35,079 nucleotides of DNA from a virus. Below, piece after piece: positions 8,869 to 33,422 of this stretch (position 1 is its first letter; each line of letters begins with the position of its first letter). Under the pieces are notes generated by a model. That model had not been told where the DNA came from. It was given only the letters and a program-made list of their open reading frames with translations, and did no database searches. The stretch spans positions 1 through 35,079 of the IMG/VR virus record IMGVR_UViG_3300028558_000069; one strand, given 5' to 3'. The position numbers and the translations under genes were made by a program.

Positions 8869-9997
8869 AGGTGACGGTTCCTATCCGAGGCAACTGAACC
8901 GGCGTCACCGGCACATCAGCGCCCGTGCCGTTGAGTTGAAGGCCCGTCACGGACAGCACACTTGGCACGCTCTGAGCCAGCGCTAACACGTCAGCAAAGC
9001 TTACTACCGTCGCTCCTGCGCCGAGGTTGTTCATGTAGTCGCTGATTGACGCCTGTACTGCCGCCTGTACGACAGACGCGACAGACGTGCTGCTGGGAAG
9101 CATGTGCATTTGCACATTGACAAGCAAATTGTTAGGCGCTTGAACCTCAGGAATATCGCCCGCCGCCCTAACGCTGTCCAGCGCAGTAGCTACCGCCGTC
9201 AAAGTAGCGCCCGAAATAGCGCCCGTGCCGTCATCCACGGTTACCGTGTAGCCTGAAACGAAGGCTGAGCCGTCGAGATGCTGCTGGGGGATGACGTTGT
9301 GCGTGAGGTTGCCGCCTACGCCCTTCACAGCGCGAGCAATGGCTGCGTAGTTACCTGTACCGAGTGCGGGTATGTAGGACTGCTGGAAATCAGCCTTAGC
9401 CGAATCATCCGAAACGGTGTCCAGACCCGTCGTAAACGGTAGCGCATTAAAAACGGTGTTCACGCCGCCCAACCCGCTGACTATCTGGGTCAGGGTGTTC
9501 GCAATAATGTTGCCCCCCGAACCGGAGACAACCGCCTGCACTAACACGTTCAACGTGCTTTGACCGCTGGGGAAGATGTACGTACTAGAACCGCTATCCC
9601 AATTGCCCGTGATATTGCCAGGGTCCGCTACGATGTTGAACTTGATGCGGTCAACGCTGGTCTGAATGACCGCGCCGGGGGAGATGTGGATTGTTGCCGC
9701 CGTAAGAATGCGACCTAACGTGACTTGGCCCGTTGCGGCACGTGAGTCTTGCCGAGAGGCACCCCAGTCAGCCAGGAACGAGTCTACCTGCGAGCCTTGA
9801 CTCGTCTGGAGCCGCATGCCGTTCTGAACGGTTAGAATCATGCTCTGCAACATGGTAGCTACGCCCGCTACCGCCATGAACATCGCCAAAGCAATAGAGC
9901 CTGGCGTAAAATCCGTCAGGTTCGGGGTCGCCGTAGACGCTGTCGCAATCATTGCGTCTACAAAGTCTTGCCAAGAGTAGGTCGTTATAGTAGCCAC
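8861..9997 (-). CDS. Baseplate J-like wedge protein
   Basis: The 378-residue protein fits the baseplate J family (P2 gpJ, Mu gp47, T4 gp6-related). It has an N-terminal helical part including DFTPGSIALAMFMAVAG (28-44), a Gln/Ser-rich helix ending at QVDSFLADWGASR, then beta-rich repeats with GNIIANT, and a C-terminal part with NNLLVNVQMHML and INxYxNxL-like SISDYMNNLGAGATV. Such proteins form the ring of wedges around the hub. It lies after the gp25-like gene (sharing one base, TAATG-type junction, with its stop) and before the gpI-like gene, which is the standard order. Confidence 0.85.
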   Translation of the reverse strand: MATITTYSWQDFVDAMIATASTATPNLTDFTPGSIALAMFMAVAGVATMLQSMILTVQNGMRLQTSQGSQVDSFLADWGASRQDSRAATGQVTLGRILTAATIHISPGAVIQTSVDRIKFNIVADPGNITGNWDSGSSTYIFPSGQSTLNVLVQAVVSGSGGNIIANTLTQIVSGLGGVNTVFNALPFTTGLDTVSDDSAKADFQQSYIPALGTGNYAAIARAVKGVGGNLTHNVIPQQHLDGSAFVSGYTVTVDDGTGAISGATLTAVATALDSVRAAGDIPEVQAPNNLLVNVQMHMLPSSTSVASVVQAAVQASISDYMNNLGAGATVVSFADVLALAQSVPSVLSVTGLQLNGTGADVPVTPVQLPRIGTVTFV

Positions 9998-10413
9998 TAA
10001 GTCAACTCAATCAAAGGAATAGGTACAATAGGATTCTTGCCCACGGAAATCGTGCCTTCGATGGTCGCGCAACTGCCCGACCCGGTAACTGAAATATCCG
10101 CCGTCACGGTACGCAACCGCTCTGCCTCCGCTTCGACTTGAATCTGTCGAATGAATGTTTGCTTGATACTGTCCCAGTTCAACTTACTGTTCTTAGTATC
10201 TACTGCCGCTCGCAAGTTGCCACCGTAATTCGTAATGAAGACGTTATCTGAAGGAATCTCACCGTTGCCGTCCACGCCTGGCGGAGAGTAGCTATTCGTG
10301 AGCGCCCGACGCACTGCGCGCTGGACAAACAGGGCTGCGCCGTCAACCGTTAACCAGTCGCCCGTATCGCTATAATCCAGGTCGCCGCCCCAGTCTAACG
10401 CAAAATCAGGCAT
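9997..10413 (-). CDS. gp25/gpW-like baseplate wedge protein
   Basis: The 138-residue protein starts at ATG 10413 with AAGGA upstream. It begins with FALDWGGDLDYSDTGDWLTVDG, continues with an FVQRAVRRALTNSY helix and ends with a beta region VGKNPIVPIPLIELT. This fits the small wedge proteins related to T4 gp25, P2 gpW and XkdS that sit between the central spike and J. A 39-bp gap separates it from the spike gene and I see no clear signal in that gap. It would join sheath and baseplate during assembly. Confidence 0.75.
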   Translation of the reverse strand: MPDFALDWGGDLDYSDTGDWLTVDGAALFVQRAVRRALTNSYSPPGVDGNGEIPSDNVFITNYGGNLRAAVDTKNSKLNWDSIKQTFIRQIQVEAEAERLRTVTADISVTGSGSCATIEGTISVGKNPIVPIPLIELT

Positions 10414-10452
10414 AACTGTTCCTTCTTCGTGAAGTGTAAGTAAGCTACCTGG

Positions 10453-11478
10453 CTATTCATGGAGGTTCACCATAGCTGAGCCGTTAGGTGTGACAGAAGC
10501 AGTTAAAGACCCCAAGAAGCCGTTGATAGCTGCTGCAACCACCGATGCTGCGGGTCCCCCCACCAGGAAACCTGAGCCTGCTAACCCATTAGCAATAGCG
10601 TTCACCATCGCTGTCTGGTCCAAAGAGCGCAACTTATCTATGCCCGTAGAAGAGTCATGTAGTAAGGTGTCAATATCATTTTTACCGATAGCCGGGTGCA
10701 TGCTAGCTCCACCGCCAATGATAGAGCCGAGATTCAACGTCGGAGTCAGACCGCCCACAGGCAATAGCCCCATAACGCCGGTCGCGTCGTTCATGTTGAT
10801 GTGATGGCCGCCAGTCGAGAGGATGCTTACTACCTGACCCGCATCGTCCAGATGGAACGTATGGCCGCCCTTCGACACAATGCTGAGAATCTGGCCTGCG
10901 TCATTCAGAAGAACGCTATGGCCCGCCGCCGACAATATGCCGACCTTCTGAGCTATGTCGTCTTGGTAGGAGGAGTGCCCCCCTTGAGTAGATACTTGAG
11001 TGTAGCCGTTACCGCCCAGTCTCGCTGCGCCTGCGCCGTCGCCGGGTATAGCGCCATCTACCGTAGTGGTGACGTGCGCTAGATTGGGGTCCTTCCAGCC
11101 GTTAATCTTGCCGCCCGGGAACGGAGGTGCATCACCGCCTGCGTTATAGAGGAGGAGGCCGCAGATAGCGTGCATGCCTGCTTCATCAGCAAACAGCACA
11201 AGTGACTGAGCGCCAAGCTTCGGCACAAACTGCATGCCAGTAGGGTTGCCCTGCGAATCTAGCTCGCCCACGTAGGGCGTCATTATCTGGAGGAAGCCTG
11301 TCTCAATCGGCGTGTTGCCCGTGGGGTCGGCCTGGTCTGAGAACATGACAAGCTTGAACTTGCCTGTATGCGTAGCCGGGTCGTAGGCGGACAGCTCACC
11401 AAACGTCAGTTTGACGTGCTGCGGTTGCGAGGCGGATTGCGCACGAGACATCGCCCAGAAATCAGATGTAGTCGGCAT
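10453..11478 (-). CDS. Baseplate spike protein, gpV-like, with four His repeats
   Basis: The 341-residue protein has an N-terminal OB-like part (about 22-110, with TGKFKLVMF and KLGAQSLVLFADEAGMHAICG) as in P2 gpV and Mu gp45. It then has four 19-residue repeats beginning at 166, 185, 204 and 223, each starting G/A-G-H followed by an alternating hydrophobic pattern (GHTFHLDDAGQVVSIL). Such repeats form the intertwined beta-helix of the cell-puncturing spike. The C-terminal about 100 residues are helical and glycine-rich. It lies after the hub gene, as expected. Function: central spike that first contacts the host outer membrane. Confidence 0.82.
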   Translation of the reverse strand: MPTTSDFWAMSRAQSASQPQHVKLTFGELSAYDPATHTGKFKLVMFSDQADPTGNTPIETGFLQIMTPYVGELDSQGNPTGMQFVPKLGAQSLVLFADEAGMHAICGLLLYNAGGDAPPFPGGKINGWKDPNLAHVTTTVDGAIPGDGAGAARLGGNGYTQVSTQGGHSSYQDDIAQKVGILSAAGHSVLLNDAGQILSIVSKGGHTFHLDDAGQVVSILSTGGHHINMNDATGVMGLLPVGGLTPTLNLGSIIGGGASMHPAIGKNDIDTLLHDSSTGIDKLRSLDQTAMVNAIANGLAGSGFLVGGPAASVVAAAINGFLGSLTASVTPNGSAMVNLHE

Positions 11479-11479
11479 A

Positions 11480-12535
11480 CTACCCTTGCGGCTCCGCGTG
11501 ATTGACTGCTACGATATTGATGTATCCGCCCTTATCCTGGTCCCAATACCAGTTCACCCGGCGCGGAGTGTAGAGTTGATTGTGGGATTCCTGCGAAGCA
11601 TCCTCCAGCTGAATCTGAAACTCGGGGCTGTTCTTCACTAGGAAGGGCAGCGTGTAACTATCTAGCGCAAACTCCATCTCCAAGATGAATTCATGGCGCG
11701 ATAGCTCAGCCTGAATCTGGGTGGCGCGATAGTTGGCTGAATTTTGGTCCAGGCCGGGGATACTGAACACGTACTGCTCATCCGTCGTGTCCCCCCCTTG
11801 TCCCGTCGTACCCGCCGTAGCCACCACTCGCGTCTTGTGGTTAGGGACGTAGGACACCACTCGCACGCTGATATCGTGCGCATGAAGAGCGCTATGCTTG
11901 ACGTTGCACTTGATTAGCCCGCCCTCCGCCACACTCTTTGAGAGAACCGGAGCGGAGTAAGGGGGCGGTCCAACGATGATGACGTTGCCCTGTACTCGGG
12001 GACGCCAGCCCACGCCAAAGGCTAACAGGTTGATGTAGTCCATCGCCTTAATGTTCTTCGTCATCGTGGAGAAGTCATTCACTAGCAGGTTGCCCGCGTC
12101 AATGCCTGACGGTTGTCCGTTGTTGACGTTCGCCTGCATGCCAAGGTTCGTAATGACGTTGCTAATGGCGGTCGTCACATCAACGTTGAGGGACGCCTTC
12201 AGTGATATCTTAGTATCCAGCAGAACCGACAGCAGTCCCCGCGCTGAAAACTCAATCTCATCCAGCGCATAATCCGTGTTAATCTCATCCAAATAAGCAT
12301 ACTGCACTTGTTCCACGGAACCCCCGACCATTCCGGCTTGAATCGTGAGGGGCAAATACTTACCTGACTGCGAGACAGCTCCGTAATCTTCAGTGGCTTT
12401 TGAGCACACGATGGTGGAGTAGATGACATCCGCTTGTCCGTAAGTACTTTGTTCAATGCGTATCTCCTTCGAGGGCAGACTAGTACCGTTCAACGCCGCT
12501 GTAAATAGCGGCTTGTTGATTTCAGATTTAGCCAT
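11480..12535 (-). CDS. Baseplate hub protein, gpD/gp27-like
   Basis: The 351-residue protein shows the pattern of P2 gpD, Mu gp44 and T4 gp27-type hubs: an N-terminal beta domain, a middle segment ISLKASLNVDVTTAISNVI that begins the domain with the conserved helix, and ENIxALDxINLLA-like KNIKAMDYINLLAFGVGW, then a C-terminal domain with repeated Asx/Tyr-rich strands ending VNWYWDQDKGGYINIVAVNH. Its ATG shares a base with the stop of the gene upstream. It makes the trimeric hub linking tube and spike. Position between the tail protein at 12.5-13.5 kb and the spike is canonical. Confidence 0.8.
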   Translation of the reverse strand: MAKSEINKPLFTAALNGTSLPSKEIRIEQSTYGQADVIYSTIVCSKATEDYGAVSQSGKYLPLTIQAGMVGGSVEQVQYAYLDEINTDYALDEIEFSARGLLSVLLDTKISLKASLNVDVTTAISNVITNLGMQANVNNGQPSGIDAGNLLVNDFSTMTKNIKAMDYINLLAFGVGWRPRVQGNVIIVGPPPYSAPVLSKSVAEGGLIKCNVKHSALHAHDISVRVVSYVPNHKTRVVATAGTTGQGGDTTDEQYVFSIPGLDQNSANYRATQIQAELSRHEFILEMEFALDSYTLPFLVKNSPEFQIQLEDASQESHNQLYTPRRVNWYWDQDKGGYINIVAVNHAEPQG

Positions 12536-17837: not shown

Positions 17838-19400
17838 TTAGCTCCCTACTTGTCCTGCTTGAGTAGCGTTCTGAATCGTAACCGTCTGACCCGCCGTGAT
17901 GTTGATGATGAGTTGGTTCACAACCGACATGAACTCCACGACCACATCAGCCGTCAGTCGGCCTGCTTGAATGTTGGGCACTGAGTTGTTGCCCAGGTCG
18001 CATTGAACCGAGAAGTCATCGATGTCGTCCGATGCTTTCTGCGGGCTGAAGTAGCCCGTGAGAGAAGCCATGACGCCCGACCGAGTTGGGTCCGGGTCCC
18101 GCGTGGTCTGCTTCTTGTTGACCCACTGTCCGAGGACTGGGCCGCCCAAGTCGCGGAGAATCTGGTTGAGCTTACGCGTATACGTAATCTCGTTGATAGC
18201 CGTGTTCGTGGAAGTGTTCTTGCCGTGCCGCAGACCAATCACCGCGCCCGAAGGGATGGGATTGTTCAGAAACAGAATGCCGTTGTTCTTCAACGACGTC
18301 ATATCCGTGAACGACAGCTGCTGAGCGCCCGTAAGATTAGTCTTCAGAATACCGAATGCTTGCTGGTTACCCGGCGAATCGCTCGGATTCATGCGAGCAC
18401 AAATGCCCGCGATGACCGGGGTTGCTGGCAGGGTTACCTGCGCGTTCAACCACGTGTCGAGATACGTTATATTACCCCAGCCACAGAAAAAGTTAGCGTC
18501 TGCAACTGCAGCCGTTAAGAAGTCACTGAGTGCCGTGGTCACCGTATCACCTGCAGTGATACAGCCTACGAATGCGCCGCCTTCGCTTTGAGCAAACACA
18601 TCGCCTGCGGCCCATGCCGTAGTGTCCGTGCTACCCGCAAGCCAACACATATCGAAACCCGATTGACGTCCCGCATAGAGGCCCGTACGCGAACCCGCTC
18701 CACCATCCGTACCCATCTGGATAGACGTAGTGATGGAGGTTATACCGTCAGAGCCGCCCGCAAGAGACTCCTTAAGATTCGTGAGGTCAGGCTGTAACAC
18801 GCTAGGCGTGCCAGGCGCAGACATAACGACGAGCGTGCTCTTAGCGTTCACCGCCGTAGCGATGTTGAGCCAGCTCTTAACACCGTAGGTACCATCCGTG
18901 GTCACGTCCATGAGAATATTGTCGTAGACTTCAGCCCGCTGATTCTTACCCGTAAAGATAGAAACCATGGCCGTAGGCGCACCCGAGGTCCAGTTAGAAC
19001 CCTTCGACACGCGACAGTAAAATTGCTTACCCCAAGAACCGTGGTAGTAGGCCGTCACGACCAGGCCGTGAGCTGCAGCGGTGTCCACAAGGAACCCGCC
19101 TGCCTTGGTCTGAGTGCCGTCGCCTACGCGAACGCCGATAACGCCACCTTGCGCACGCTGCGCCATGTACAGGACACCGTCTTGAACGATATCCTTGCCG
19201 CTGTTAATAGGCGGTCCAAAATTACGAACCAGTTGCTGCGGAGAAGCGGAGACAAGCGCCGTGTTAAACGGACCCCAAGAAGCCGCGCCTGAAATAAGCG
19301 CGTTGAACAGGGTCGCACCGTTCATTAGAATGGCTTGCGGCAGATTGACGTTCAAATAAACATCATCAATGCCTAAACCATTACTGAAGCTTTGAGCCAT
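17838..19400 (-). CDS. Contractile tail sheath protein
   Basis: The 520-residue protein has an N-terminal beta arm, a VPxAI-like opening (VYLNVNLPQAILMNGATLF), a surface domain between about 130 and 360, and a C-terminal domain with GAVIGLRHGKNTSTNTA, TRKLNQILRDLGGPVLGQWVNKK and a closing pair VEFMSVVNQLIINITAGQTV. The last part is the conserved sheath handshake domain of myophages. It proves that this phage has a contractile tail. The ATG at 19400 overlaps the upstream 85-residue gene by 20 nt and has AGGA six bases before it. Confidence 0.92.
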   Translation of the reverse strand: MAQSFSNGLGIDDVYLNVNLPQAILMNGATLFNALISGAASWGPFNTALVSASPQQLVRNFGPPINSGKDIVQDGVLYMAQRAQGGVIGVRVGDGTQTKAGGFLVDTAAAHGLVVTAYYHGSWGKQFYCRVSKGSNWTSGAPTAMVSIFTGKNQRAEVYDNILMDVTTDGTYGVKSWLNIATAVNAKSTLVVMSAPGTPSVLQPDLTNLKESLAGGSDGITSITTSIQMGTDGGAGSRTGLYAGRQSGFDMCWLAGSTDTTAWAAGDVFAQSEGGAFVGCITAGDTVTTALSDFLTAAVADANFFCGWGNITYLDTWLNAQVTLPATPVIAGICARMNPSDSPGNQQAFGILKTNLTGAQQLSFTDMTSLKNNGILFLNNPIPSGAVIGLRHGKNTSTNTAINEITYTRKLNQILRDLGGPVLGQWVNKKQTTRDPDPTRSGVMASLTGYFSPQKASDDIDDFSVQCDLGNNSVPNIQAGRLTADVVVEFMSVVNQLIINITAGQTVTIQNATQAGQVGS

Positions 19401-19638
19401 TGTTGTCCTGTTCTCCTAATGCGGTCGTGGGCTTATCGTGCATCTTATCACGCACTACTTCTTTCTTCGTGTCTGTGGTAGACACTACCTTGTTCTCCTT
19501 TTGACGGAAGCCTACAAAGTTTTGGTCTAAACGCCAACGCTCGCACTCTTTAAGCACGTCGCCTCGAACGTGCTTATCGAATGGGCGGTCCACAACAATT
19601 TCGTGGCCTTCGGGCACTCGAACCTTTGTTAAATCCAT
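19381..19638 (-). CDS. Small hypothetical protein between tailspike and sheath
   Basis: The 85-residue protein begins MDLTKVRVPEGHEIVVDRPF and is strongly charged, with a disordered Lys/Asp/Thr-rich C-terminal half (TDTKKEVVRDKMHDK). Its ATG overlaps the tailspike stop (TAATG) and its end overlaps the sheath start. No family is recognised. It may be a sheath or tailspike accessory, based only on position. Confidence 0.6.
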   Translation of the reverse strand: MDLTKVRVPEGHEIVVDRPFDKHVRGDVLKECERWRLDQNFVGFRQKENKVVSTTDTKKEVVRDKMHDKPTTALGEQDNNGSKLQ

Positions 19639-21152
19639 TAGTCGTTTCCAATCCAGTCGCCAGACGGCGAGCCGGCAAATGAAATCTGGTCGTAAGGGTC
19701 CAGTTTCAAAATGCCTTGAGTAATCAGTTTAGTCACGCCGTTCAGAGTGTAGCTTGTCGCGCCCCAGAACGAGATGTAAGACGTTCCATAGTAGCCCAAT
19801 GACGCTGCTGTGGTCGCCGTCAAAGGAATCACGCCGCCATTAAGCACCTTGTGCTGGTCCGTGAGGCCGGGGCAATCCTTGAACCAAATAGTCGTTGGCG
19901 TGCCCACTACTTTAAGGGGGCCTAGCGCGTTGTTGGTGAGGTCTACATTCTTTACACGTAGAATAGTGGTGTTTGAGCCTAGGTCCACTATCATGCCCCA
20001 GGGCTGGCGAGTAGAGAAGCCTTCATAGTCGCCTCGGCAATTCGCGCCTTCAATCTCAACAACGTCGCCCCCCGTCACACGAATGCCTGCGTAATCGCCC
20101 CCGCCCTGTCCGTTGGCCGAGTAGCGACCCTTGTTGACCTTGACTAAGTGGCAGCCTGCAATAAGCAATCCGTCCCGCGTCCAGTTGATATAGGTCTCAT
20201 TGTTGAGGCTCACACCGTCAGTTGAGGAGTTAGCGAACGCTCCTGTGCCAATCGTTCCACCAGGGAACGTCGTCACCGCGCTGGCACTCAGGACGTGGAT
20301 GTTATCTGTGAAGATAGCGTTCTGATTAGCCGCCCCTGTAGGCGGGTTGAACATCACGGACCACTTGCGAGGATTCATGTGGTTACGCGAGATGAATACG
20401 TCATTCCAACTCTTAAGGAATTCAAACCCGTAGTCCATGTGCGAGAAATGATTGTCCTCTATGTACAGCGTAGACACCGATTGTATCTGCGCTGCCTTGT
20501 TATTGTTGTTCGAGCCGCCAGCACAACGCATTACGTTGTTGCGTAGGAAACACTGCGACCCTGATAAGACGTTCCAAATGAGATTGTTGACGTTGAACGC
20601 ATCCAACGTACTATCTTTGACCCCACACTGCAGGGCATGGTCGTCAAAGAAGGCAGCTGCGCAGCTGTTAAAGAATAGGCGCTCACCCACCATGTTCTGG
20701 CAATTAGTGGCATACAGCGGATAACCGCTCACGCCGCCCATGTACTTAATAGTGAGATTGCGGATACCGATACCCATACCGTTACCGCCGTCGCCCGCGA
20801 CAAAGAACAAGTTACCGTTCGCGTTCACTACCAACTCAGTCAACCGGCTAGGCGATTCAATATCTACGCCGTCAACCAGCTCATTGAGGGGGTTGATTTG
20901 ATACGTTGCTAGCGGTATGAGAATCCGTCCGCCCGCGACAGCCGCTGTAGCAGCCGCGTTGAATCCGTCCGTGTTAGATGATGCCCCACTGGCACCGGAC
21001 ATGCCGTACTTAGTGCCTAGAAAAATAGAAATACCCGACAGATCAGCCGTGGCTCCTACAGCGTTCTGCGCTGCAACAGCTGCGTCAAAATCCTCGTTGA
21101 GGTCCGCTGCGTGGGCTACTTCGCCGGTCACAAACTCATGTGGTACTGACAT
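19638..21152 (-). CDS. Tailspike-like protein with right-handed beta-helix
   Basis: The 504-residue protein starts with a helical head (SVPHEFVTGEVAHAADLNEDF), which resembles the adaptor segment of many fibres and spikes. It then has a pectate-lyase-like part: TDGFNAAATAAVAGGRILIP (61-80) is typical of the start of polysaccharide-degrading tailspikes. Next come regular coils rich in Asn and aromatic residues (IGIRNLTIKYMGG, CLIRNNV-like CFLRNNVMRC, LYIEDNHFSHM, DVFISRNHMN, GIRVTGGDVVEIEGANCRG). A short beta C-terminal cap follows (SYISFWGATSYTL). It probably binds or degrades a host surface glycan. Catalytic residues cannot be assigned from sequence. It sits before the sheath rather than after the baseplate genes. 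Confidence 0.82.
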   Translation of the reverse strand: MSVPHEFVTGEVAHAADLNEDFDAAVAAQNAVGATADLSGISIFLGTKYGMSGASGASSNTDGFNAAATAAVAGGRILIPLATYQINPLNELVDGVDIESPSRLTELVVNANGNLFFVAGDGGNGMGIGIRNLTIKYMGGVSGYPLYATNCQNMVGERLFFNSCAAAFFDDHALQCGVKDSTLDAFNVNNLIWNVLSGSQCFLRNNVMRCAGGSNNNNKAAQIQSVSTLYIEDNHFSHMDYGFEFLKSWNDVFISRNHMNPRKWSVMFNPPTGAANQNAIFTDNIHVLSASAVTTFPGGTIGTGAFANSSTDGVSLNNETYINWTRDGLLIAGCHLVKVNKGRYSANGQGGGDYAGIRVTGGDVVEIEGANCRGDYEGFSTRQPWGMIVDLGSNTTILRVKNVDLTNNALGPLKVVGTPTTIWFKDCPGLTDQHKVLNGGVIPLTATTAASLGYYGTSYISFWGATSYTLNGVTKLITQGILKLDPYDQISFAGSPSGDWIGND

Positions 21153-21841
21153 TAGTTCCAGGTCGCTCCGCTGTCTAGCTCTGTAGTGTCTAAGATGATG
21201 GGGTTCTCTGCAGGCGGGTTGCTGCCCCGATTGCGTACCACAACGCCTAATACTTGATTATTCACCGTCATGCTAACGTCTACCTCTTCAACCAGGTAGG
21301 AAATCTGACCCACAGGTATCTGAAGCACATCGAAGTCAGCAACGTAAAACATCTTTTGAACATAGACCGAATCGCTCTGCTCGTTATCAAACGGCTCAGC
21401 GTGAGCGAAACGCAGCGTGGTGGTGGTGGTGTCCAACTCCGTCTGACGATAAAAATCACCGAGATAGCCTCTAATCACGTTAGAGATAGCTGCCCGGGTG
21501 GGGCGGTCGTAGGACCACACCTCAATAATCATTGCCTTCTCCGAACGTCCCGTCTGGAAGGTTTCCAAACCGTTCGGCAGAGTTATAAGCTTCTGCGAAT
21601 CGTAGTACGGCATGACCTTCTCGGTCGTGTAAGGGTAGATGCTTACTTGTGCCATGTGATTCTCTAGACGGTGCAACACTTTCACCTGGATAGGGTGGCC
21701 CGCGCCAATGATAGTAGGCGGTATGTAGCCTGCAGAAGGCTGCGCATTCGGATAGTCTGGAGGAAGGTTAGGTTGAAACGGCGCAAGGAATGCTCCCACG
21801 CTCACCGCCAACTGGTCCATTACATCATCCAGAAATGCCAT
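21152..21841 (-). CDS. Tail terminator / neck protein candidate
   Basis: The 229-residue protein starts at ATG 21841 directly after the receiver gene stop. It has an N-terminal helix with a Pro-rich loop, then beta segments (GHPIQVKVLHRLENHMAQVS, EKAMIIEVWSYDR) followed by PTRAAISNVIRGYLGDFY, and a beta C-terminal part. The pattern of an I-x-V-W-x-x-D-R-x-x-R-x-x-I helix resembles tail completion/terminator proteins of myophages, which cap the tail tube and lie just before the sheath. A tailspike gene interrupts that order here. The assignment is mainly by position and pattern. Confidence 0.6.
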   Translation of the reverse strand: MAFLDDVMDQLAVSVGAFLAPFQPNLPPDYPNAQPSAGYIPPTIIGAGHPIQVKVLHRLENHMAQVSIYPYTTEKVMPYYDSQKLITLPNGLETFQTGRSEKAMIIEVWSYDRPTRAAISNVIRGYLGDFYRQTELDTTTTTLRFAHAEPFDNEQSDSVYVQKMFYVADFDVLQIPVGQISYLVEEVDVSMTVNNQVLGVVVRNRGSNPPAENPIILDTTELDSGATWN

Positions 21842-22213
21842 CTACTTGAATCCTAGCTCCCTCAAGGCTGACTCTGTCTCACGTCGTAAATAGGGCTTAA
21901 TCCTCACGCAATGGATGGAGTCAGGGTCGCCATAAGCCGCACCCTTCTGCCCCGCTGAGGACCACATGAGAACTCTAGTCGCTAATCTTGCATTCTTGAC
22001 GTGGGTAGCTAATTCCGCGCCTGACATGTGAGGCATCACATAATCAGTCACGAGCAAATCAGGCGGTGTCTCCAGGCTCTGGATATACTTCCAAGCGGAG
22101 AGTCCGTCACGAAATGAGGCTAGCACCGTCACGCCTATCCGTTTAAGGATGGGTATGATTTGCTGTAACTCGGGGTCGGAATCATCCGCCACGACTGCTG
22201 TAATACTCATCAT
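21842..22213 (-). CDS. Stand-alone response-regulator receiver domain (CheY-like)
   Basis: The 123-residue protein is one complete receiver domain and nothing else. It has the acidic pair D10-D11 after the first strand (TAVVADDSD), the phosphoacceptor D57 in LLVTDYVMPHMSG (53-65), the switch Ser/Thr position at S85-S86 (VLMWSSAG) and the conserved Lys-Pro at K106-P107 (RIKPYL). These are the residues that bind Mg2+ and phosphate in two-component receivers, so it should be phosphorylatable. There is no DNA-binding output domain. It overlaps the 111-residue neck-region gene by 32 nt and abuts the tail-terminator candidate, so it is expressed with structural genes. Role unknown: it may drain or redirect a host histidine kinase. 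Confidence 0.9.
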   Translation of the reverse strand: MMSITAVVADDSDPELQQIIPILKRIGVTVLASFRDGLSAWKYIQSLETPPDLLVTDYVMPHMSGAELATHVKNARLATRVLMWSSAGQKGAAYGDPDSIHCVRIKPYLRRETESALRELGFK

Positions 22214-22517
22214 CCAACTCCGTTGCTAACTTTGAAATCCTCTGTGCAATCGTAGCTAGACTACGATTCAGGCGATTAAGTGCGTCTACGTCGCGCCACT
22301 TAAACATGTAAGATATTAGGCGGTCCCCTACGTTGCCGGGTTCGCCCCCGCGAGCAGGTCCGTTGAGACCGGCGACACGTTCCCATCCTTCGGGGTCGGT
22401 GAGAAGGTCTGCTTGATACTGGGCCTCGGCTTCGAGCACGGCGTCCCGCTGAATCTTGTGAAGCTCATCTCTCCGCGTATCATATTCCTCATCCGTTAGA
22501 TGAACAGCGATTCGCAT
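22182..22517 (-). CDS. Hypothetical neck-region protein (111 aa)
   Basis: The 111-residue protein is helical and acidic: ATG 22517 opens MRIAVHLTDEEYDTRRDEL, a flexible middle contains GPARGGEPGNVG, and a C-terminal helix reads DALNRLNRSLATIAQRIS. It overlaps the connector gene upstream by 22 nt and the receiver gene downstream by 32 nt. I recognise no family; its place in the head-completion cluster suggests an assembly role. The long overlap with the receiver gene means their expression is tied. Confidence 0.6.
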   Translation of the reverse strand: MRIAVHLTDEEYDTRRDELHKIQRDAVLEAEAQYQADLLTDPEGWERVAGLNGPARGGEPGNVGDRLISYMFKWRDVDALNRLNRSLATIAQRISKLATELDDEYYSSRGG

Positions 22518-23272
22518 ATAGCAAGATACCCCTGCGTGCCCGTCGTAAATACGGAAAGGTTCTCAATACGGAAGCGGTCACCGTTCTGCGCATTCAACAC
22601 GTCACCGGGCTGGAGCAACACCCCAGGTAGCAACGGCAGGTAGGCGTAGTGAATACCACGTTTTGTCGCTGTCGGGTAATGGTATTCCTGAGCTGTGCCC
22701 AATCGGCTGTAAGGTTGTAGCCCGAATGGAATCGTGGCCATGATGCCGGTAGACTCGAAACTGTAGTAGCCCCACGTCTCAGGAGTCGCGCCTAGCACTA
22801 GATACTCTTCACTGCCCTTTGTCGTACCTTGGTAGGGTACGGTCCCTAGCATAGGCTCTTCAGCCTCGTCAGAATTAGGTCGCGACACCGACCCCATAAT
22901 CTCAGTACGAGCGAACACTGCGGGCATCAGAGGCTGGCAATCTACGAAGGCGAAGGCACGTCCGTCCGGGGCGTCCGTCGTATGTGGCGCTGTTTCAATG
23001 AGGATATCGCCTATCTTCAGCGAGCGAATGTCCGCCTCGCCTATATAGCACATCTTGTAGATGTCCTCTTGCTCCAGCACGCTTTTGTTCGTGATACGAT
23101 TGAAGCGACCAGGGAAGTAGGCCGTCACCAGGTTCTGCTCGTTGATGATGCTGGAGGCATCGTTAGGCACGCCTGAAGCGCCGCCGATACGGTACACGCT
23201 ATACGTGGAGGCAATAGGCTTAATTTTGCCTAGACCTTGTCGCAGAGCCTTGTCGTTAGTGTAAAGCGACAC
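22496..23272 (-). CDS. Head-closure/neck protein candidate
   Basis: The 258-residue protein starts at GTG 23272. It is mostly beta, with a C-terminal section LLPGVLLQPGDVLNAQNGDR followed by FRIENLSVFTTGTQGYL. A strand of the type L-x-x-G-D-x-x-x-x-x-x-x-x-R-F-x-I is common in head-closure proteins. It lies in the connector cluster between capsid and tail-terminator genes. It probably sits below the portal and retains packaged DNA. The call is by position and fold pattern, with no diagnostic motif. Confidence 0.5.
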   Translation of the reverse strand: MSLYTNDKALRQGLGKIKPIASTYSVYRIGGASGVPNDASSIINEQNLVTAYFPGRFNRITNKSVLEQEDIYKMCYIGEADIRSLKIGDILIETAPHTTDAPDGRAFAFVDCQPLMPAVFARTEIMGSVSRPNSDEAEEPMLGTVPYQGTTKGSEEYLVLGATPETWGYYSFESTGIMATIPFGLQPYSRLGTAQEYHYPTATKRGIHYAYLPLLPGVLLQPGDVLNAQNGDRFRIENLSVFTTGTQGYLAICESLFI

Positions 23273-23278
23273 GGTAGC

Positions 23279-24073
23279 CTACTGGGGCAGACCGAAGCTG
23301 GGAATTCCGCTACTAGGGTTGGGAGCGAAGAACGATAGCGCCACGCCCAGTTCAAAACGATAGCGACGCAGTAGCGAGTTGCGTACTCGCAGCTCATCGG
23401 GACGGAACACCGCCGCACCAAGTGTGCGTGAGCCCACTTCGCTGAGAGACAGATTTGAGCTAGAGTTGAGTAGTTGCTGTTCGAGTGCCTCACATATAGG
23501 CAGTAGCCCGTAAGCTATGACCTGCTTAGTCGGGTCGCCGTTTCCGTCGTCAACAAGAAACTGTGGGGAAGCAGGGTAGTCGCCCGACTGAATTACTACC
23601 ACATTCGACACCGCAGTCAGTGCAAATGGGGTCGCGGTGGGGGTTAGCAACTCGAACTGTATTGCAGTGGAAAGTTGGGGGTAAGAGCCTATCACCGCAA
23701 TCTGCGCAGAGTCGGCTAGATACGTAGGCAGCGCCGCCTGGATAGCCGCCAATATACCCGTCGCCACGCTCAGCAACGGGTCACGAGCCGCCATATCTGA
23801 GGGCTGGACTGTGTAGGTCACTGTCGTGGAGTCTACGGTGAAACTGTACACGCGGTCTAGCGCCGTAGGAGCGTAGATGATGAAAGCGCCGTAGGGCCGT
23901 CCAAGCAGCAGCGACACCTCAGGCATCTGGAGGTTGTTCATATAGAACTCCAGCTGACCCGCCTTAAGAACAGTACGCAAACCCATGGTAGTGTTTGCAT
24001 CCGCCCTACCCGCAAAGGGGACACCTAGTTGGCGCCGTATGCGCGCTTTAGTCTGCAGGTCTAGTGAAGCCAT
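23279..24073 (-). CDS. Head-tail connector candidate
   Basis: This 264-residue protein starts MASLDLQTKARIRRQLGVPF. The N-terminal basic helix, a beta-rich middle (AFIIYAPTALDRVYSFTVDS) and a helical C-terminal part (LLPICEALEQQLLNSSSNLS then ELRVRNSLLRRYRFELG) suggest a virion adaptor. It lies one base after a 94-residue gene and seven before the head-closure candidate. The exact role is unclear; a neck adaptor below the portal is inferred from location only. Confidence 0.5.
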   Translation of the reverse strand: MASLDLQTKARIRRQLGVPFAGRADANTTMGLRTVLKAGQLEFYMNNLQMPEVSLLLGRPYGAFIIYAPTALDRVYSFTVDSTTVTYTVQPSDMAARDPLLSVATGILAAIQAALPTYLADSAQIAVIGSYPQLSTAIQFELLTPTATPFALTAVSNVVVIQSGDYPASPQFLVDDGNGDPTKQVIAYGLLPICEALEQQLLNSSSNLSLSEVGSRTLGAAVFRPDELRVRNSLLRRYRFELGVALSFFAPNPSSGIPSFGLPQ

Positions 24074-24707: not shown

Positions 24708-26105
24708 TTATCGGGCAGAAGCGACCTGGACCACGACCGCACGCTTGTTACGCGCAGCGCTCGCAGACGGAAGGACCGCACTGGTGATGGTGGCATCGGT
24801 CGGAGCCGCGTACCCGCCAATCCAGTACCAACCGCTCGAAAGAATCTGGCCCGCACGGTCAAGCGGCATACGCTGGACGAACACGATGTCGTCAACGATG
24901 TCGAATTTCTGCACGCCCATATCAGGCATCGAACGGATAGCCTCTTCAGTACCCGCGAACGGGGACATCTGGAGGTACTTCTCGCCCGTCACGATAGCGT
25001 GGCGTGCTACGACGCCGGCACTAGCCGTGAAGGCCGGGCTGTTCGTGGTCGGCACGAACGTCACACCGAAGTTTTTATTGACTCGCGCACCCTTGAACTC
25101 CGGGGAGTCCACCGTGCCCTGACTCATGATTTGGTACTGCGGGTCCGTGAAGAACTGCGCATCCACAATCGGGTCAATGTAGCACGGATAGGTGTTATCC
25201 GCCAGAGGCGACTTCACACCGTTTGCGCGAAGCTCAGCCACCGCGTTGATGATGAGCTGGGCACCGATGGTGTCCGTTGCCGTGAGTTTGGACACGTTGG
25301 GCTTACCGTTCGGACGGTAGATGGCCGGGCCGTCTGCCGCCTTGATGGTCCAACCCGCCGTGAGGGTCGCCGTGGTACCCAGAGTCAAGGTCGCAGAGTA
25401 TGCGCCCGAGCCTGCGTAGTTTTCCACCGCGTGGTTCGTACCTTCGGGGGTGACGCCCGTAATCGTGTTGACTTCGGTCGTGCCGTCGTCATGCGTGATT
25501 ACGACCGACAGCGGGTTGCTTACGCTAACCGGAGCCGGTGCGCCCGTGGGGAAAGTGTTTCCGCCGATGGTCGTGGTTGCGAACGCCGTATCAAGGCCCT
25601 TCGCATTGTCCACAATGTACGACGTGCCCGAACCGGACTTGATGTACGTAGACCCGCCCAGGTAGGCATCGAACGCCACATTCATCGCCTGAAGGTCAAG
25701 CGACAACGCTGCGTTCTCAACCAGGTTGTCCTGGTTCTGTTTGAAAATGTCTGCGATGACTTCCTTCGCCTGAACGAGGTTCAGGTCCAAGAAGTACGGA
25801 CGCATGCCGATGAACACGGACCACTGCTCGAACGGGTAGGTGGGGTTAGCCGCTCCTACGCCGCCGATGCCGGTGACGCCGTTGTCCAGACCCGTATTAA
25901 GGGAAGGAGTGAGGTCACTGAGGACCGGGCTGATACGACCAGCACGCGAATAGGTGATGCTTTCACCGCTGCGGATAGGGACCGGCAAGCGGAAGGCAGT
26001 CTTACGATACGCACAGAGCGCCTTAAGTTGGTCCTCGAAGCGCCGAGCCAGCATGTTTTGCTGGAAAATATCTTGAAATACGGTGGGGAAATTCTCGAAA
26101 GCCAC
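24708..26105 (-). CDS. Major capsid protein
   Basis: The 465-residue protein starts at GTG 26105 with AGGAG ten bases upstream. It has an N-terminal helical arm (FPTVFQDIFQQNMLARRFED), a Pro-rich beta part (TAFRLPVPIRSGESITYSR), a spine-like helical part, and a beta-rich insertion (about 185-270, from VSVSNPLSVVITHDDG to GWTIKAADGPAI). A helix then contains TDTIGAQLIINAVAELRANG and a C-terminal segment ends PSASAARNKRAVVVQ. This fits an HK97-fold coat with an inserted domain, as in P22-like coats. Protease and scaffold genes precede it, as expected. A long untranslated leader before it and hairpins after it isolate the gene for high expression. Confidence 0.85.
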   Translation of the reverse strand: MAFENFPTVFQDIFQQNMLARRFEDQLKALCAYRKTAFRLPVPIRSGESITYSRAGRISPVLSDLTPSLNTGLDNGVTGIGGVGAANPTYPFEQWSVFIGMRPYFLDLNLVQAKEVIADIFKQNQDNLVENAALSLDLQAMNVAFDAYLGGSTYIKSGSGTSYIVDNAKGLDTAFATTTIGGNTFPTGAPAPVSVSNPLSVVITHDDGTTEVNTITGVTPEGTNHAVENYAGSGAYSATLTLGTTATLTAGWTIKAADGPAIYRPNGKPNVSKLTATDTIGAQLIINAVAELRANGVKSPLADNTYPCYIDPIVDAQFFTDPQYQIMSQGTVDSPEFKGARVNKNFGVTFVPTTNSPAFTASAGVVARHAIVTGEKYLQMSPFAGTEEAIRSMPDMGVQKFDIVDDIVFVQRMPLDRAGQILSSGWYWIGGYAAPTDATITSAVLPSASAARNKRAVVVQVASAR

Positions 26106-32073: not shown

Positions 32074-32688
32074 TTAAATGGTTGCGACGCCCGCCCGCAG
32101 CGTATCGAGTACGTGAATAATCTGATTCGCCGCTACGACTGCGCTATCCGCCTTGATGACCTCAAAACCTGCGCGCTCATAACGGGCGCAACAACGGTCC
32201 AGCATCTTGACCTTCGCGTCGAACAGCTCCTCCTTAAATGGGCCTCGTACCACCTTGGAGGTTTTGCGCCGTGCGTTGATGTGTTCGAAGCACTTAGCGC
32301 GGTCAGGCATGAGAAAAATGAACTGGTACCGCACCTGCGCATCTTGCATCTTGCCGGCTAGGTCAGCATAGCGCTCGTAAGTGATGCTTGCCAGTATCCC
32401 CTCGAACGCAACGTCAAATCCGCTTCCTACTGCCCACTCCACACGAGCATTGATGTGGTCCTGGCGGTGAATCTTATCGCATCCTCCAGTGGGAGCCGAG
32501 TAGTCTCCCACAACAAAGAGGCCATCGTTAAGCAGTATCCCAACTACCTCGTTGGGTTTATCCGCAAAGTCTAGGCCGTTGACCAGGTCGGAGGCTTTGA
32601 TAACATCCCGTACTCCGTAGTTGTCAATGAGGCATCGAATTGTCGTAGACTTACCTGAGCCGTGGTTCCCTCGGATTTGAAAGACCAT
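32074..32688 (-). CDS. P-loop kinase, candidate hydroxymethyluracil-DNA kinase
   Basis: The 204-residue protein has Walker A GNHGSGKST (7-15), a GDYSAPTGGCDKI segment (61-73), DHINARVEWAVGSGFDVAFE (77-96) giving the Walker B-like end, and a C-terminal arm with NARRKTSKVVRG. It starts at ATG 32688 with a full AAAGGAG six bases upstream. The start lies 118 nt inside the helical hypermodification-type gene. P-loop kinases with a Y-x-x-x-x-G-G-C-D motif are known as 5-hydroxymethyluracil DNA kinases in phages that make hypermodified thymines. Substrate here is inferred from motif and neighbour. A small-molecule or polynucleotide kinase is the alternative. Confidence 0.75.
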   Translation of the reverse strand: MVFQIRGNHGSGKSTTIRCLIDNYGVRDVIKASDLVNGLDFADKPNEVVGILLNDGLFVVGDYSAPTGGCDKIHRQDHINARVEWAVGSGFDVAFEGILASITYERYADLAGKMQDAQVRYQFIFLMPDRAKCFEHINARRKTSKVVRGPFKEELFDAKVKMLDRCCARYERAGFEVIKADSAVVAANQIIHVLDTLRAGVATI

Positions 32689-33422
32689 AGACTGCTCCTT
32701 TCGAGCATGCGTTTGGCAATCCAGTTAGGACGCCACAGCAATTCATTTACGGTAGTACGTATTTCCTTACCCGGTTGATACGTGCCTGTCGTGAATTCTT
32801 TGAACCGGCACAGCACCGTTTCAGCCTCGCGCACGTCCACGTGGCGGATATGCAACGGGGGCACGGTTAGGTCCGATAGGAGTGAGGCCAACCGTACCAG
32901 TGTATCGCCTTGGGATTCACCTGGCGAGGCAATCATTTTAGCCCCTTCGGCGGGGGTCTTGTATAGCTCCCACGTATAGGGGTCTGGCGGGTCCACGGAA
33001 TAGCCCAGCAGCATCTCACCCATGTCGATGATTTTAGTCGCCGTCCAGGCGCCAAAGCCGGGCACCTCACGGATACGCTTCTCGATGGGGGCGTACGTCG
33101 TGTCTTGTCCGAACCAGTACTTGAGCCAAGCATCCGGTGACTTGGTCTTGAGGTACTCTAGCGTTCGCACCGCATTAGCAGCCCTAAAGTGACGCCGCTC
33201 AGGTGAGCGCGGCAGTATCTTCAACTCGCTCATCGCTGCCGCGTAGGGGTGGTCCTGCGCTGCTAAGTGGCTGGTAACTCCCGCATGTATGAACCAAGAG
33301 TAGAGGAATACCCACTTACGCAACAGGTCAGGCTTTAACTCGGCGTCAAATGCTACGATGTACGCCGGGTCTAGGTCGCCATTCTGAATCAGCTGGCGAC
33401 CAAACTGCTCAACTGGGGTCAA
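32571..33422 (-). CDS. Thymidine hypermodification-type helical protein (HMUDK-hel/ADDT-like)
   Basis: The 283-residue helical protein contains LPRSPERRHFRAANAVRTLE (about 70-89) and a helix-hairpin-helix EVPGFGAWTATKIIDMGEML (119-138). The ERRHFR and PGFGAWTATK segments are features I associate with proteins fused or linked to phage hydroxymethyluracil-DNA kinase and alpha-glutamyl/putrescinyl-thymine pyrophosphorylases. Start codon is TTG 33422 (TTGA overlap with the previous stop); no later Met before residue 64. The last about 40 codons overlap the kinase gene in another frame and look low-quality (SEGTTAQVSLRQFDASLTTT). So the native protein may have ended earlier or been fused to the kinase. 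Confidence 0.68.
   Translation of the reverse strand: MTPVEQFGRQLIQNGDLDPAYIVAFDAELKPDLLRKWVFLYSWFIHAGVTSHLAAQDHPYAAAMSELKILPRSPERRHFRAANAVRTLEYLKTKSPDAWLKYWFGQDTTYAPIEKRIREVPGFGAWTATKIIDMGEMLLGYSVDPPDPYTWELYKTPAEGAKMIASPGESQGDTLVRLASLLSDLTVPPLHIRHVDVREAETVLCRFKEFTTGTYQPGKEIRTTVNELLWRPNWIAKRMLERSSLWSFKSEGTTAQVSLRQFDASLTTTEYGMLSKPPTWSTA

Follow-up and report, generated by a model that had tools for sequence, protein, structure and literature searches.

A conserved single-domain receiver gene in the neck cluster of a contractile-tailed phage lineage and its possible interference with host kinase signalling

The presence of a complete CheY-like receiver gene among the neck genes of a phage raises the question of whether its product helps to build the virus particle or acts upon the signalling of the host. 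The gene lies in a 35,079-bp IMG/VR record, the whole of which was analyzed here and is referred to as the window; the record is classed as linear and is hence probably a fragment, and a near-identical contig (99.8%) is found in metagenome 3300031595. On its minus strand, the window encodes the terminase, portal, Clp-type protease, capsid, neck genes, sheath, tube and tape measure of a contractile-tailed phage. The features on which the analysis relies are the following:

17838..19400, minus strand: tail sheath (PHROG 23), which marks a contractile-tailed phage
21152..21841, minus strand: neck/tail-terminator-like gene, 229 aa, directly downstream of the receiver gene (PHROG 13532, function unknown)
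21842..22213, minus strand: single-domain response-regulator receiver, 123 aa (D10, D11, D57, S85, K106)
22182..22517, minus strand: helical-hairpin protein, 111 aa, with a 32-nt overlap at the receiver start; second member of the two-gene cassette discussed below
22496..23272, minus strand: neck/adaptor-like gene, 258 aa, directly upstream of the cassette; kept in all four lineages compared
23279..24073, minus strand: head-tail adaptor-like gene, 264 aa; kept in all four lineages compared
24708..26105, minus strand: major capsid protein (PHROG 1357), used as query for finding relatives

The receiver gene is read on the minus strand from an ATG at 22213, a few bases 3' of a GGAG, to a stop codon at 21842, and the plus strand is stop-rich here. 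The original prediction of a 123-residue receiver with D10-D11, D57 (within DYVMPHMSG), S85/S86 and K106-P107 agrees with the ORF and its translation, as do, by the ORF coordinates, the overlap with the 111-residue gene (22517-22182), within which the receiver starts, and the contact with the downstream gene, whose ATG at 21841 abuts the receiver stop codon. This 229-aa gene had been called a tail terminator; its adjacency is clear but the name is unproven, PHROG 13532 being its sole match. Receiver sequence fills the 123-aa ORF throughout, as a stand-alone domain with no output domain attached. Since independent metagenome contigs carry diverged orthologues at this very slot and AlphaFold2 predicts a CheY fold, the ORF is not a product of chance.

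Against Pfam PF00072, the receiver scores 42.8 bits (E 6.8e-11), above the curated cut-off of 30.2 bits, and a profile built from the three orthologues described below finds mostly CheYs, together with a NarL receiver, among its best-matching solved structures. The AlphaFold2 model, obtained with three input sequences, presents a CheY-like (beta/alpha)5 fold (pLDDT 79, pTM 0.78) and matches solved CheYs with Z of 17-18, including the archaeal CheY 6ekg (Z 18.0, rmsd 1.6 over 117 residues). D57 corresponds to the phosphoacceptor Asp, D10/D11 to the two acidic Mg ligands, S85 to the Ser/Thr after beta4 and K106 to the Lys after beta5. A full phosphoacceptor site without an output domain, as originally proposed, is thus borne out by the Pfam match, by the predicted fold and by the D, D, D, S/T and K residues, which are retained in the receivers of all three carrier lineages. 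Within the serine pair, S85 stands as a receiver residue, aligning with the catalytic T87 of CheY, while S86 aligns with the small residue A88.

Relatives of the window phage were identified through its capsid protein. Among known phages, capsid relatives are distant only, at 26-30% identity (Komagataeibacter phages phiKX1/2 and Streptomyces phage Kromp), and a receiver was looked for in phiKX1 and Kromp and found to be absent. Searches with the neck protein or the capsid protein returned no prophage relatives in bacterial genomes, and profile searches with the neck, terminator-like, helical and capsid proteins returned no solved relatives. Elsewhere on the minus strand of the window, an ADDT-like gene (amino acid:DNA transferase, PF18724) overlaps a nucleotide-kinase-like gene (32074-33422), a pair that suggests hypermodified thymidine in the phage DNA, and two adjacent genes (467-1410) fall in families named for cyanophage Pam3 gp33 and gp32 (PF23984, PF23992), a weak hint of an aquatic or cyanobacterial host.

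The receiver is carried by three lineages, all known from metagenome fragments: the window, L005/L004 (3300036651, 3300035694) and L012 (3300047333). In the latter two, a receiver orthologue occupies the same slot as in the window, 3' of the neck gene and of an overlapping short helical gene, and 5' of the terminator-like gene. Among the window, L005 and L012, capsid identity is 65-73%, and receiver identity is 40% (window-L005), 31% (window-L012) and 48% (L005-L012). The phage trio cluster together in a receiver tree with a support of only about 50, so that orthology of the receivers rests on position and common neighbours. A codon comparison of the receivers finds most variation in third positions, but these are near saturation and no dN/dS claim is made. 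In a fourth lineage, L093 (3300037069), the helical gene and the receiver are both missing from this slot, where the neck gene instead overlaps the terminator-like gene in a TAATG; PF00072 has no match anywhere in this 15.6-kb record, and the surrounding head and tail structural genes are retained. The expectation that D57 and K106 be conserved in relatives and that the gene not be missing from close ones was therefore only partly upheld: both residues are kept in diverged relatives, but L093, a close one, lacks the gene. In a tree of eight structural proteins, L093 falls beside L005 (support 100) and inside the carriers (99), with L012 outside (81). The simplest account of this pattern would be the presence of receiver and helical gene in the common ancestor followed by one joint loss in L093; independent gains of both genes in the carriers are possible but less likely. 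The L011 and L013 records end before the position of the cassette, and a four-member profile of the terminator-like protein, used to search for further members of the clade, returned only those already known.

A search of 50 records (the window, its capsid relatives and some additional ones) gave above-cut-off PF00072 hits only in the window, its clade and one unrelated phage. In the latter, L096 (3300020045_011859), the receiver (9971-10588) is joined to a helix-turn-helix-like domain and is encoded close to an integrase-like gene; it represents a differently built phage response regulator. Weak, sub-cut-off receiver-like domains in the distant capsid relatives L103 and L104 (G041, G030) appear to be without an acceptor aspartate and were set aside. 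Two other differences among the contigs were observed. In the interval that separates its terminator-like gene from the sheath region, the window has a gene for a 504-aa protein (19638-21152, minus strand) without Pfam or PHROG match; this gene is peculiar to the window phage, since L005, L012 and L093 have none at that place. L012 carries, directly 3' of its capsid gene, an HNH-endonuclease-like ORF (11481-11972) that would fit a homing endonuclease.

The joint inheritance and loss of the receiver with the overlapping helical gene had been missed by the earlier reading of this locus. The 111-aa protein is predicted to form a two-helix hairpin, and the receiver start lies inside its gene in all three carriers. 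Two motifs recur in the helical proteins of the window, L005 and L012, namely AEA and, at the C terminus, E-[LI]-x-x-E-Y; BLASTP similarity between these proteins is weak (3e-4 and 4e-4 against L012, with no match between window and L005), and by position and motifs they are likely, but not proven, to be homologous. The protein does not resemble an HPt, with no PF01627 match in the records of the clade and no invariant His. Its best structural match, a chain of the T7 tail complex (Z 9.1), is below the noise level for helical models and was discarded. Because the nested L093 is without both genes and joins its neck gene to the terminator-like gene by a direct overlap, the receiver and the helical gene appear to act as one dispensable cassette rather than as virion-assembly genes, a pairing based on one joint absence among four lineages, three of them carriers.

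The conservation of the receiver is unevenly distributed along its length. When the three phage receivers are aligned, invariant residues fill 28 of the 89 positions in the N-terminal part but just 1 of the 31 in alpha4-beta5-alpha5, the I-K-P triad not counted (Fisher p = 0.001). No CheY triple of similar divergence is as low in this region (0/35); among triples of non-CheY receivers of mixed function, 8 of 19 are as low in the C-terminal part, and the eroded face does not, for this reason, exclude output via another partner. Alpha4-beta5-alpha5 is the face at which FliM binds CheY. Mimicry of CheY, whereby the phage protein would bind the CheY target of a flagellar motor or type IV pilus and alter host motility, had been among the roles originally offered. 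It can draw on the predominance of CheYs among the nearest solved relatives by profile, and on an SxGQ motif after beta4 that resembles the SAMGQ of Bacillus and Clostridia CheYs. It is weakened, and in our judgement improbable, because neither the FliM-type output face nor the aromatic switch residue has been conserved: the region carries indels of differing length (the L005 receiver is about five residues shorter before KP), KP is not preceded by the GA-x-x-[YF] motif, the position of CheY Y106 is occupied by C, H or I, and AlphaFold2 is unsure of residues 95-103, at the end of alpha4 and in beta5 (pLDDT below 50). The chemistry of the receiver is thus kept, and its CheY-type output has probably been lost.

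The position of the gene, between two conserved neck genes and abutting the downstream one, could be read as that of a virion component or neck assembly factor using the receiver fold as a scaffold. This role, likewise part of the original prediction, is weakened by the nested L093, which lacks the receiver yet keeps the neighbouring structural genes, and a complete set of catalytic residues is unexpected in a pure scaffold; we regard it as very improbable. Equally doubtful is that the receiver is passing cargo, taken up recently from a host and serving no fixed function. Few bacterial domains are commoner than the receiver, which also occurs sporadically in other phage records, but slot and catalytic residues have been kept here despite the divergence of both capsids and receivers. 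An alternative that takes the two genes as a signalling pair and not as mere neighbours is a phage-internal phospho-switch, in which the receiver, on taking phosphate from host kinases or acetyl phosphate, would alter its grip on the helical hairpin, the latter being the real effector in, for example, lysis timing, late transcription or action on a host target. The presence of both genes in three lineages and the absence of both in the nested fourth, their overlap in all carriers and the predicted hairpin speak for this arrangement. The joint loss is nevertheless a single event, which the deletion of two neighbouring genes by chance might explain, and the helical protein is weakly similar across lineages and finds no informative structural match. 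We consider such a switch unlikely, though credible; its fuller form, in which a receiver charged by a host kinase controls its helical partner from the neck cluster and the phage reads host two-component signalling late or on entry, is rather unlikely.

The drain of phosphate from a host kinase, the remaining role of the original prediction, provides the best fit. Since the phosphotransfer site is complete while the classical output face is eroded, we favour a late-expressed accessory receiver that faces a host kinase as sink or decoy and may be partnered by the helical protein, and assign this reading a probability of roughly 0.4; its kinase target, mechanism, partnership and timing are what we infer. 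The helical hairpin and the receiver would constitute a two-gene accessory cassette, presumably transcribed, by its position in the neck cluster, with the late structural genes, and the helical protein would be the probable functional partner of the receiver. Neither a kinase (HATPase_c) nor an Hpt domain turned up in the records of the clade, so that phosphate would have to come from a host histidine kinase or from acetyl phosphate, or the receiver could instead dock on the kinase; the records being fragments, a phage kinase could lie outside them. Late in infection, the receiver would then occupy or drain the host kinase, and, if packaged, it would act just after entry instead. A phosphate sink requires an abundant and quickly cycling protein. 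There are bacterial parallels: single-domain receivers are discussed as hubs or phosphate sinks (PMC5964349, PMC3868531), and a receiver-like protein is reported to inhibit CckA (PMC9430884).

Compared with CheY (PF00072), the phage receiver has in common the fold, the stand-alone architecture and the catalytic D/D/D/S-T/K residues, but differs in the missing aromatic switch residue, the unconserved alpha4-beta5-alpha5 region, the lack of any kinase found and its place among neck genes. Response-regulator genes are already known in phages. Alteromonas phage V22 carries a CheY-like gene, CDS-30, known by annotation only, which its authors count among the class II auxiliary metabolic genes for signalling (PMC7289586), and a PhoB-like response regulator has been reported in phage R8W. 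Alteromonas phage PB15 (KX982260) also encodes a single-domain receiver, but in a different phage and at another genome position, adjoining an annotated carboxypeptidase gene, and with 34% identity over only 57% of the L012 receiver; this protein (L105, 6013-6390) has K-S instead of K-P after beta5. The cREC proteins of jumbo phages have a receiver fold with conserved aspartates, are tied to NAD/ADP-ribose genes and have been proposed to be enzymes (PMC7824862). In contrast, the window receiver has a conventional receiver sequence and structural neighbours, namely neck and capsid genes, and no NAD/ADP-ribose-processing families were found among the window proteins scanned. The mode of action proposed here has a phage precedent in PIT4 of Pseudomonas phage LSL4, which binds host histidine kinases (PMC10714779); PIT4 is the product of an early gene, whereas the receiver is presumed to be late. 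A receiver that keeps its position in a neck module and is accompanied by a helical gene was not found described in the open-access literature searched.

Phage receivers in that literature are mostly isolated annotations. The receiver described here has kept a fixed place through deep divergence, with an intact catalytic site and a paired gene, and is absent from a relative in which the structural genes are kept, a combination suggesting that some phages may disturb host two-component signalling, or eavesdrop on it, by means of genes placed in their structural clusters. The cassette constitutes a small, testable module of two short proteins with one catalytic residue to mutate, and the receiver probably tampers with host signalling rather than building the virus particle.
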